Shown one piece after another: positions 848-43,295 of a DNA stretch of 64,000 bases. The stretch is taken from the NCBI GenBank assembly GCA_020735665.1, contig CP085928.1:744001-808000 (forward strand). The letters run 5' to 3'. A model generated the notes under the pieces. It did no database searches and was not told the DNA's origin. It saw only the letters and a program-made list of their open reading frames with translations. Within the stretch, counting starts at the first letter, position 1; every line of letters starts with the position of its first letter. The stretch comes from Lachnospiraceae bacterium GAM79 (GTDB lineage Bacteria > Bacillota > Clostridia > Lachnospirales > Lachnospiraceae). Made by a program: the position numbers and the translations under genes.

Positions 848-883
848 GGCGTTCCTCCTGATAAGATTTGTATATTTAAAATT

Positions 884-1054
884 ATTTAATCTGAACTTTG
901 ATTAACTTCTTTGATTTGCCAAAGCAGGGACATTTGAGTCCGCCGGTACTTGATGGTGCATATGCAGCATCTTAGTACCGTTGCAGGACGAAACGAGCGG
1001 AAGCGTTCCCTGTTTGGTAAAGTCAAAGATAGTTAAATAGAGTTCAGATTAAAT
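884..1054. repeat. Long inverted-repeat element, copy A (between lysR and leuC)
   Basis: Outer arms starting ATTTAATCTGAACT (884-897) and ending AGTTCAGATTAAAT (1041-1054) are complementary over about 50 nt with a few mismatches, running in to CCAAAGCAGGGAC / GTTCCCTGTTTGG. The enclosed core holds TCCGCCGGTACTTGATGGTGC and GCATCTTAGTACCGTTGCAG, which form a nested hairpin, then AGCGGAAGCG, a mini-hairpin with a GGAA (GNRA) loop. The core is shared with copies near 2.6 kb, 22.9 kb and 43.2 kb. It fills much of the 362-bp gap between lysR and leuC. I cannot tell from sequence whether it acts as RNA or DNA. Confidence 0.85.
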
Positions 1055-1082
1055 ATCATTATAAATATAAGTTATATAATGT

Positions 1083-2493: not shown

Positions 2494-2697
2494 AAGTTTG
2501 GGTTATTAATAGCGTTATATATGTTGCATCAGAGTTGTTTAGCATTACCAATCAGGGGAATACGAAGTCGCCGGTCCTTAGATGGTGCGTAGCGGCATCT
2601 TAGTACCGTTGCAGACTGAGTTAAGCGGGAGCGACCCCAGATTGGTATGCTGGAACAGCTCAATGCAGATGTGTTATATATTAATAACCCAAACTTC
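2494..2697. repeat. Long inverted-repeat element, copy B (between leuC and leuD)
   Basis: Arms of about 70 nt pair AAGTTTGGGTTATTAAT (from 2494) with ATTAATAACCCAAACTT (to 2696). They continue through GCATTACCAATCAGGGG versus CCCCAGATTGGTATGC with scattered mismatches. The core (about 2565-2640) contains GTCGCCGGTCCTTAGATGG, then GCATCTTAGTACCGTTGCAG and AGCGGGAGCG, a small stem with a GGGA (GNRA) loop. The core matches copy A but the outer arms do not. It occupies almost the whole 244-bp leuC-leuD gap, so it would be transcribed inside the operon. The leuD ribosome site begins just after the right arm. Confidence 0.88.
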
Positions 2698-2719: not shown

Positions 2720-3205
2720 ATGAAAGCATATGGTACAGTACACAAATATGGTGACAACGTAGATACAGATGTTATTATCCCTGCAAGATATCTGAATTCA
2801 TCAGATCCTGCGGAGCTTGCAAAACACTGTATGGAAGATATAGATAAGGAATTTGTAAACAACGTAAAAGCAGGAGATATTATCGTGGCAAAGAAGAACT
2901 TTGGCTGTGGTTCCTCCAGAGAGCATGCACCGATTGCGATCAAGGCATCCGGTGTAAGCTGTGTTATCGCAGATACATTTGCAAGAATTTTCTATCGTAA
3001 CTCGATCAATATCGGACTTCCGATCATTGAGTGTCCGGAAGCAGCAGAAGGTATCGAGAACGGTGATGAAGTAGAGATCGATTTTGACAGTGGTATCATC
3101 TACGACAAGACAAAGGATACCCGGTATAAGGGTCAGGCATTCCCTCCATTCATGCAGGAGATCATTAAGAATGAAGGCCTGATTAACTACATTAATAACA
3201 AGTAA
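2720..3205 (+). CDS. leuD: 3-isopropylmalate dehydratase small subunit
   Basis: The swivelling small subunit (161 residues) completes the isopropylmalate isomerase active site with LeuC. The family signature [17 protein letters not shown] is at about residues 60-76, and [16 protein letters not shown] lies near the N-terminus. The length matches the short LeuD type. The start is set by AAAAGGAGACAGACT just upstream of the ATG. Palindromic elements flank it on both sides: repeat B before it and the tandem hairpin units after it. This is unusual spacing for two subunits that must be made together. Confidence 0.97.
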
Positions 3206-3479
3206 TGCACATTTGAATAACTCTATGCTATGCAAGCGTGCTTGCATATAGCATAGGAGTTATTCAAATGTATAGTGCGCAGCACAAACCGAGCCGAGAG
3301 GCGAGGTTGCATTACTTGGTAAAGAAAAGGCATATGCCAATAACTCTATGCTATGCAAGCGTGCTTGCATATAGCATAGGAGTTATTCAAATGTGTAGTG
3401 CGCAGCACAAACCGAGCCGAAAGGCGAGGTTGCATTACTTGGTGTGCATTACTCGGTGAAAGAAAGGCAGGAATAAAAG
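3206..3479 (+). repeat. Tandem pair of structured hairpin units between leuD and leuB
   Basis: Two nearly identical 105-bp units (3216-3320 and 3339-3443, period 123 bp) fill the gap. Each contains an almost perfect hairpin: CATTTGAATAACTC in the first unit, then TATGCTATGCAAGC, pairing with GCTTGCATATAGCATAGGAGTTATTCAAATG split over the right side. Next come GTGCGCAGCAC and AACC-GA-GCC-GAGA-GGC-GA-GGTT, an internal stem with tandem G-A mismatches and a GNRA loop. The second copy changes the loop GAGA to GAAA, which is still GNRA. A third partial copy of the tail (GCATTACTCGGT) precedes the leuB ribosome site. These units would be transcribed within the leu mRNA. Confidence 0.9.
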
Positions 3480-32324: not shown

Positions 32325-32939
32325 ATGAAGAAAAAATATTTTTTCAGAGGATTAGGCTTTGGACTTATCATCGGTGCGCTTGTCATGATGGTTGGTATCA
32401 AGTCCGGAAGCTTTGCAGATACAAAGAAGAATGATCCGTCAAAAGAAGATGCGGTAGGAGTTGTTGCATCGGAAGAGGCTACTGAATCAGCGAAAACGAC
32501 AGAGACTGCAACGGAAACGACAAAAGAGGATGCAGCTAAGGCAACGACGGAAGTGACGACAGAAGCTACAACAGAGGCGACAAAGGAAACCACAACGGAA
32601 AATACAACCAAGGCAACCACGGAAGCCACAACCGAAAGTACAACCAAGGCAACGACAGAAGCTACAACAGAGGCTACGACAGAAGCAACTACGGAGGCTA
32701 CGACAGAGACAACTACAGAAGAAAAGAAAAAGGGTGGTTCGATCACGATCAGGCCGGGTATGTATGCAGAGGCAATCTCTCAGGCATTATATGATATCGG
32801 AATGGTAGACAGTGTACAGGATTTTTATGATTATCTTGTAAGCTCCGGTAATTCCATGAAACTGATGTGTGGAACTTTCACATTCAAGGGTGATGAAACC
32901 TACGATGAGATGATCACTATTATGAGAGATGGACGATAG
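32325..32939 (+). CDS. Membrane-anchored protein with Thr/Glu repeats and a short MltG(YceG)-like domain
   Basis: A 204-residue protein. The N-terminal signal anchor is KKKYFFRGLGFGLIIGALVMMVG. Residues about 45-135 are tandem TTEAT-type repeats, encoded by ACAACGGAAGC-like 15-18 bp repeats. The last 65 residues (SITIRPGMYAEAISQALYDI; GMVDSVQDFYDYL; GTFTFKGDETYDEMITIM) resemble the LysM-like N-terminal module of endolytic transglycosylase MltG. The catalytic lytic domain (over 200 residues) is absent, so this is not a full MltG. It starts 35 nt after the DUF6115-like gene, with TAGGAGAAACGGCAGT before the ATG. Confidence 0.75.
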   Translation: MKKKYFFRGLGFGLIIGALVMMVGIKSGSFADTKKNDPSKEDAVGVVASEEATESAKTTETATETTKEDAAKATTEVTTEATTEATKETTTENTTKATTEATTESTTKATTEATTEATTEATTEATTETTTEEKKKGGSITIRPGMYAEAISQALYDIGMVDSVQDFYDYLVSSGNSMKLMCGTFTFKGDETYDEMITIMRDGR

Positions 32940-42842: not shown

Positions 42843-43073
42843 AGGTATCTTATTTCTAATGAAATGGATTCTTATATTATCATGTAAAAGATACATTTCG
42901 TTTTCTGTTCGGTTTGCACGCTCATTAGCCAGCAGTCGCCCAGACTCGTCCTTCGGACTCAGACATGGGCTTGATGCTGGCAGCTAGTGCAAAGCCTCAC
43001 AACGAAAACTGCATGAACATCTTTGTACATGATAATATAAGTAATCATTTCATAAAGAAATAAGGTATTTTAT
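42843..43073. repeat. Long inverted-repeat element E
   Basis: Arms of about 65 nt: GGTATCTTATTTCTAATGAAATGG... pairs with ...CATTTCATAAAGAAATAAGGTATT, including the shared stretch CTTATATTATCATGTA / TACATGATAATATAAG. The centre is a second, shorter inverted repeat: GGTTTGCACGCT ... AGCTAGTGCAAAGCC, then AGCCAGCA...TGCTGGC, GCCCA...TGGGC and GTCCTTCGGAC at the tip. The core differs from copies A-D. Together with element D it accounts for nearly all of the 455 bases between the permease gene and the tRNA. Confidence 0.85.
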
Positions 43074-43119
43074 TTTTGAAACAGGCAATAATTTTTTTGT
43101 TGTTGTGCTGCCAAAGACA

Positions 43120-43273
43120 GAAAACGTCTGCCCTGAAAACTATGTTCTATAAGCAAACCTGTTCGAACGTCGGTCCTTAACGAGTCACCACAGGTGAGGA
43201 GTTTAGTACCGTTACGTGAGAATAGAACGCAAGTGTTTTGCGATAGAACATAGTTTTCAGGGCAGACGTTTTC
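43120..43273. repeat. Long inverted-repeat element D (divergent member of the A-C family)
   Basis: Perfect 31-bp arms: GAAAACGTCTGCCCTGAAAA... (43120-43150) and ...TTTTCAGGGCAGACGTTTTC (43243-43273). The core has CGTCGGTCCTTAACGAGTC, CACCACAGGTG (hairpin) and GAGTTTAGTACCGTTACG. These match the GGTCCTTA / TTAGTACCGTT blocks of copies A and B. It continues with GAACGCAAGTG, a small stem with a GCAA (GNRA) loop. It ends 23 nt from the 3' end of tRNA-Arg and so may be transcribed with it on the minus strand. Confidence 0.88.
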
Positions 43274-43295
43274 GTCCGTTTAACCATAAAAAATA

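Follow-up and report, generated by a model that had tools for sequence, protein, structure and literature searches.

Four long palindromes lie in a 64,000-nt stretch of the genome of Lachnospiraceae bacterium GAM79 (designated G000; the whole of this stretch is referred to as the window), and they raise the question of what such structures are and of how arms that are specific to each copy remain complementary. Palindromes are present at all four places (copies A, B, C and D), and their RNA folding energies lie 9.7 to 12.5 s.d. below those of 200 dinucleotide shuffles each, with 0 of the 200 shuffles per copy folding as well as the real palindrome. A pure chance origin is ruled out by this control together with that of random positions (see below). 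The features are as follows; the names leuC and leuD, like those of ntpA, ntpB and ntpD (V-type ATPase subunits) further on, are presumptive, being taken from recognition of the sequences rather than from a family search.

871–1069, forward strand: copy A, subtype 1, whole palindrome with arms, upstream of leuC
940–987, forward strand: copy A, core hairpin P2
997–1004, forward strand: copy A, mini-hairpin P3 with GGAA loop
2494–2696, forward strand: copy B, subtype 1, whole palindrome, between leuC and leuD
2567–2616, forward strand: copy B, core hairpin P2 (CGGTCCTTAG...CTTAGTACCG)
2625–2632, forward strand: copy B, mini-hairpin P3 with GGGA loop
22795–23005, forward strand: copy C, a larger variant in decay that retains its arms but not the 3′ half of P2 and P3
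22874–22913, forward strand: copy C, extra CTTAG-type hairpin module, also found in other large variants
43116–43276, forward strand: copy D, subtype 2, whole palindrome, adjoining tRNA-Arg and containing 31-nt perfect arms
43167–43217, forward strand: copy D, core hairpin P2
43227–43234, forward strand: copy D, mini-hairpin P3 with GCAA loop

Watson-Crick pairs occupy 53 of 63 arm columns in copy A, 50 of 65 in copy B and 38 of 41 in copy D (31 nt perfect), and the 37-nt arms of copy C are 86% complementary. These values, with shuffle z-scores of −9.7 to −12.5, bear out the description of complementary arms around each place that a first-pass annotation had given. One inner-arm type is, as also described there, common to copies A–C; copy D represents a second subtype (both by eye). 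The outer arms are unrelated between copies among the matches listed, except in neighbouring second copies and in one recent pair (2486802 and 2488795, 2 kb apart). The core proper, made up of CGCCGG or CGTCGG, then TTAGTACCGTT, then a GNRA mini-hairpin (GGAA, GGGA, GCAA), is common to copies A, B and D. It had been ascribed to all four copies, which does not hold for copy C, as the latter has neither TTAGTACCGTT nor the GNRA mini-hairpin and matches the covariance model described below with E = 0.77. Compared by eye with a relative at 2807940, copy C is without the 3′ half of P2 and P3, and it looks like a larger, internally deleted relative. Other repeats are present in the window. Just before copy D, positions 42859–43053 form another long-armed palindrome with a different core (31-nt arms, 87% complementary, z −11.4), which is absent among the covariance-model matches in G000. 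Two 117-bp units of 94% identity, each with a long hairpin, occupy 3204–3443 just after the leuD-like ORF, and degenerate 12-bp repeats are found at 32484–32745 within the ORF at 32325–32939.

The core folds as a three-way junction of ~105 nt in which the arms provide stem P1, P2 is a long hairpin and P3 a hairpin of 2 bp. The consensus of P2 is CGGYNCUUA...UUAGUACCG, with a U-U mismatch held inside CUUAG/CUUAG, and an extra CTTAG-type hairpin occurs in some larger variants. Two alignments were used to follow base-pair changes, namely a sequence-only alignment of 22 G000 sequences (A1; L020 and L022 left out) and an alignment fitted to the model (A2; 39 matches from 35 loci, 30 genomes and 27 genera). 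In A1, 92.4% of cells are paired and 125 are changed on both sides, compared with 41.6 on shuffling and 9–24 in slid controls; further pair types show no excess (35 versus 38.6 shuffled). The corresponding values for A2 are 92.7% paired and 289 cells changed on both sides, versus 82.2 shuffled and 45–63 in slid controls. An excess of G-U over A-C in the core stems (34:20, p = 0.08; 14:6, p = 0.12) is not significant. In A2, P3 is capped by GNRA in 39/39 sequences (GAAA 12, GAGA 9, GGGA 8, GCAA 6, GGAA 4), the third loop position being a purine in 39/39. Loops were read in 93 of 95 G000 copies, giving 88 GNRA and 2 GTCA, where the third position alone is informative as the script favours G..A loops. 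Covariation within G000 and over 27 genera, along with the GNRA caps, thus upholds the earlier suggestion of a structured RNA. Kept pairing, on which the argument for selection on structure had partly relied, is by itself no proof of such selection, as illustrated by a perfect-palindrome core in a sister genome (see below). A known Rfam family as the identity of the core is ruled out, as Rfam 15 gave no match over the window at gathering scores, none at E up to 5 for five own-genome loci and none at E up to 1 for nine loci from other genera.

To what extent the family is repeated was determined in G000. A pattern search of this genome returned 24 places versus 4 for the reversed pattern, all 24 located in long palindromes (by eye). 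With E up to 1 as the limit, the covariance model, built from 22 G000 copies, yields 111 places; 97 reach an E of 2e-7 or better, which corresponds to ~96 distinct copies. The 97 matches were used and the 14 weaker ones left out; two lack flanks, giving 95, among which the place 391187/391196, read on both strands, is counted twice. The arm score exceeds 15 in 90 of the 95 matches, and with a second arm scoring 90/95 lie above 15.4, a value reached by the top 1% of 300 random positions; median arm reach is 46 nt (from 8 nt inside the model match) and median identity 84%. Elements span mostly ~150–280 bp, are dispersed and carry no transposase inside, in keeping with MITEs, which are shorter than 500 bp. 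Neighbouring matches less than 450 bp apart (n = 18) are arranged 12 minus-plus, 4 minus-minus, 2 plus-plus and 0 plus-minus. Examples of the back-to-back pairs are 1417837−/1418110+, 1531042−/1531300+ and 1668567−/1668797+, and minus-plus pairs appear alike in a second genome, G020 (by eye), where a GTAG is found near the right foot of some units. A search beside copies gave no convincing protein partner, the recurring families looking like common paralogues (ABC ATPase type at 14 loci, by eye). CGTCCGT was seen on the right side alone (5 of 90 flanks, versus 0 on the left).

Beyond G000, 299 Lachnospiraceae genomes, one for each genus, were scanned with the model, and 114 of them have the core. 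Among 40 genomes including G000 it is found in 13, all in the family f1 (Lachnospiraceae), and in a class sample in 10 of 391, all 10 likewise Lachnospiraceae; as the best 13 and best 10 candidates per genome were scored in the family and class surveys, respectively, per-genome counts are lower bounds. G020 holds at least 98 copies (98 candidates scored). Modelling the copies, searching Lachnospiraceae and testing covariation, as had been proposed, gave a widespread core with covariation above that of shuffles, and the prospect that the core might be confined to one strain and devoid of covariation is contradicted by 114/299 genomes and by covariation across 27 genera. A pattern scan of IMG/VR returned 20 stretches, and with an E limit of 0.01 the model recognises a single one of these (5.4e-5), so that there is little sign of phage carriage of the core. 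No description of the palindrome family was found in the open-access literature.

Gene contexts, as called by a simple ORF caller, bear on whether the copies are retained mainly since the hairpin and junction terminate, process or stabilise host transcripts, mobility being incidental. The 95 G000 matches include 47 in convergent, 40 in co-directional and 8 in divergent position, an excess of convergent sites that would suit such a role, except that it is not visible in G020 (4/28), G222 (2/12), G071 (0/6), G004 (1/9) or G002 (1/6), nor in a pooled sample drawn from 24 further genomes or loci sets (2/27). In G000, a same-strand gene follows 13 of the 16 subtype 1 copies versus 18 of the 76 of subtype 2 (p = 2.5e-5; 3 unclassified copies left out), again in favour of host use, whereas no clear preference for one strand is seen among the co-directional copies as a whole (24 on the gene strand, 16 on the opposite one). 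Around leuC, 80 records of related species gave 16 matches in 8 records, and all 16, which are not independent of one another, run on the leuC strand; the excess of G-T over A-C in G000 arms (131:83) points in the same direction. A record titled Bacteroides sp. (L274) has a leuC that is 92% identical to the Lachnospiraceae one here; the label looks wrong. Given also that sister genomes are without the element, or have a replacement, at the same place, a mainly host-serving RNA is an unlikely reason for the retention of the copies.

The sister genomes are G002 and G004, which are ~96% identical where compared and nonetheless differ in the presence or absence of copies. At site 1, between ntpB and ntpD, an outer palindrome is present in the two genomes alike, with one arm in the 3′ end of ntpB and the other an inverted copy thereof; in G000 the same conserved gene end is present and the inverted copy is not. 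The inner elements at this site are wholly different between G002 and G004 in sequence and orientation, a difference that simple insertion does not explain. At site 2, before ntpA, G002 has an element and G004 a short hairpin without the core, with the adjacent tens of bases also different, and the change is unpolarised. At site 3, G004 is ~300 bp longer than G002, apparently right after a stop codon, and G002 has the empty site; the stretch is likewise short in G003 (86 bp, versus 404 in the query) and in G000 (162 bp, versus 417), and it is for site 3 only that a direction of change is argued. At site 4, G002 is ~410 bp longer than G004, with the 6-bp repeat CCGCCT at both ends and tandem repeats inside (by eye). 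By eye, an insertion rich in tandem repeats lies at ~2780–3190 of L093 (G002), with several ~20-bp units holding GCGTCCGT. Two other elements are common to both genomes. Between leuC and leuD, where G000 carries copy B, a coreless hairpin is seen by eye in G004. In one G004 core the mismatches are replaced by a perfect palindrome, and G002 keeps the consensus there. The conjecture of a fold-back mobile repeat that copies flanking DNA into its arms is thus borne out at one place, by the inverted gene end of G002 and G004 that is absent from G000.

Units with defined ends occur in two further genomes, G222 and G071, in which end patterns gave 79 and 90 matches, respectively, and reversed patterns 0. 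Core-bearing units of G222 measure 264–280 bp and have the ends CACGGTAAACGCATG; 10-bp target repeats agreeing at 8/10 or more accompany 11 of 14 distinct units (3 of these 14 being without the core), versus 0 of 182 control pairs. The 13 core-bearing units of G071 measure 254–297 bp and have ends like GTTACTTTTCATGGGGTGGGG, and 8-bp target repeats agreeing at 7/8 or more are found for 6 of 20 units (5 of 13 with the core), versus 1 of 380 control pairs. Units that have lost the core are present in both genomes, and in L250 (G071) the unit at 1501–1681 is without P2, its remaining core apparently inverted relative to the arms (by eye). In these two other genera, MITEs whose ends differ from each other thus carry the core as cargo. 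A 2.3-kb unit of G071 with the same ends as the core units encodes an IS66-family transposase (PF03050, 1.5e-17, 64.4 bits, cut-off 23.1); it has no core match at E up to 10 and no target repeat, and its second ORF has no Pfam match. The one long unit examined in G222, with 3.2 kb between its TIRs, contains ordinary genes as judged by eye. Outside such units no rule emerged, TIR with TSD being found in 3 of 95 G000 copies (control 0/281) and in 5 of 78 copies of several genera versus 5/308 in the control, the clear ones being the included single G222 and G071 copies.

As regards the mover, IS66 matches occur in G002, G003, G012 and G071 among 12 genomes tried, and none was found in G000, G001, G004, G015, G020, G222, G151 or G227; an absence from 8 of 12 genomes, G000, G004, G020 and G222 among them, disfavours IS66 as the general mover. 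G000 was searched for three families and has no IS66, no reverse transcriptase and a Y1 transposase as a 30-position fragment only. The statement that no transposase or known riboswitch motif explains the copies accordingly stands as far as Rfam and, within G000, IS66 and reverse transcriptase are concerned, and falls short in that the core sits inside MITEs elsewhere. Likewise, of the known families of which the copies might have proved to be pieces, Rfam provides no match, while carriage of the core in MITEs with TIR and target duplications in G222 and G071 bears out part of the IS/MITE prospect. Alternatively, an HUH or other transposase could recognise the fold in its single-stranded DNA form, in a REP/RAYT-like manner. 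The units of G020 have conserved sequence outside the arms and no convincing TIR, Y1_Tnp occurs in several genomes (three matches in G020), and GCGAAAGC is an unusually stable DNA mini-hairpin, all of which would suit this alternative. However, Y1_Tnp is present in 7 of 8 genomes without the core and 8 of 10 with it, and this independence over 18 genomes disfavours RAYT (Y1) as the general mover; G003 and G015 carry the core without Y1_Tnp, and G000 has the fragment alone. Moreover, the invariable purine at the third loop position (39/39) is the GNRA rule of RNA, and TIR and TSD in G071 and G222 point to other enzymes there. Recognition as single-stranded DNA is consequently improbable. A reverse transcriptase that copies the RNA with snap-back priming would also produce inverted arms, and an arm that continues as the inverted end of the neighbouring gene would fit such copying. 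RVT_1 is, however, absent from G000, G003, G012 and G015, all of which have copies; 6 of 10 core-bearing genomes have a match, as do 7 of 8 in which the core is missing. With 0 RVT_1 matches an RT-borne element is disfavoured in G000, and we give very little credence to a retro-element as the source of the family.

Units of common ends allow the two arms to be compared where they vary. A variable 8-base arm segment of G071 is readable in 12 of the 13 core units, and is exactly complementary in 9 of these, in 8 variants; one of the remaining units agrees over its 8 shared bases and two differ at one base. Diversity at core positions of G071 is mostly zero, while the spacers in the same units vary. 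In G222, where 11 bases were compared, 8 of 11 readable copies match exactly (two more exact by eye) and the others differ at 1–3, and in a partly overlapping set of units 4 of 10 readable are exact over the 11 bases, the others again differing at 1–3. Two G222 copies were misread by the script and one gave no reading. For G020, 15 of 24 readable units are exact over 10 bases, 6 have one difference and 3 have 4–5, with 8 of 32 unread. Template switching, which is described in PMC8794818 as creating and mending perfect stems, fits the two-sided arm states and the perfect-palindrome core. One-sided arm differences fit slow ordinary compensation as well as template switching, and slightly reduced our confidence both in a mobile palindrome with a selected core and in the fork-switching proposal given below. 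If template switching creates and mends stems, the palindromes and matched arms may be its by-product, devoid of function, with cores alike only through recent common descent, as the perfect-palindrome change in one G004 core might suggest. This is quite improbable, since core mismatches, junction and GNRA rule are kept over 27 genera despite much sequence change, and since the core is near-invariant in G071 alongside variable spacers. Because of the GNRA rule and of near-invariance inside otherwise variable MITEs, we infer that selection maintains the core in the form of a folded RNA.

Conservation and covariation of structure, high copy number, presence or absence in sister genomes and carriage in two MITE families are established, and the explanation that we consider reasonably probable is that of a non-autonomous mobile palindrome of Lachnospiraceae that carries a selected folded-RNA module and whose arms are kept complementary with the help of template switching. 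The core would be a conserved ~105-nt folded module (P1, P2 and the GNRA-capped P3) carried by short mobile palindromes. Replication template switching would help to keep the arms complementary, given the perfect-palindrome core, the inverted gene-end copy and varying arm segments mostly matched by the other arm, and may at least once have lengthened them with an inverted copy of neighbouring DNA. The G000 copies are probably old insertions, of which the mover is lost or is not found among IS66, Y1 and RT. A bolder proposal is that the core is a new RNA module on different transposon kinds, the fold of which makes the replication fork switch template and copy neighbouring DNA inverted into the copy-specific arms, so that the outer ends would be made anew from each landing site; as a whole, we hold this to be doubtful. 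Under the mobile palindrome that we favour, a guess by analogy with Correia and BOX repeats is that the core might have a role in processing or protecting element-containing transcripts, and should it do so, many genes in common gut bacteria might be influenced. In any case, a structured RNA-like module without a match in Rfam 15 is present in 114 of 299 Lachnospiraceae genera, and the copies form a natural series in which one may ask whether stems persist through selection on RNA structure or through repair by template switching, a distinction that PMC8794818 brings up.

Several known systems are comparable. Correia elements (CREE/nemis) of Neisseria occur in high copy number between genes and are, like the palindromes here, short non-autonomous repeats. 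RNase III cleaves transcripts that contain them, and does so at the terminal inverted repeats (PMC10969869). The conserved part here is, in contrast, an internal three-way-junction core, with copy-specific arms, and the core is found in MITEs with different ends. BOX elements are of modular build and, to our knowledge, have a different sequence and fold, no long copy-specific arms and no carriage in MITEs with different ends. In Streptococcus pneumoniae, BOX elements lie between genes, may contain RNA motifs and are found in clusters with other small repeats (PMC10969869; see also PMC3049150). REP/RAYT systems likewise consist of palindromes dispersed in high copy, REPs being short hairpins with a 5′ GTAG/GTGG tetranucleotide (PMC6006769), whereas the palindromes here are ~150–280 bp with a branched core that Y1 does not track in 18 genomes. 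Finally, IS66-family MITEs are comparable in that the core units of G071 share their ends with a unit encoding an IS66-family transposase and in part have 8-bp target repeats, but the IS66-bearing unit is without the core, the units of G222 have other ends and a 10-bp repeat, and those of G000 are without such ends.
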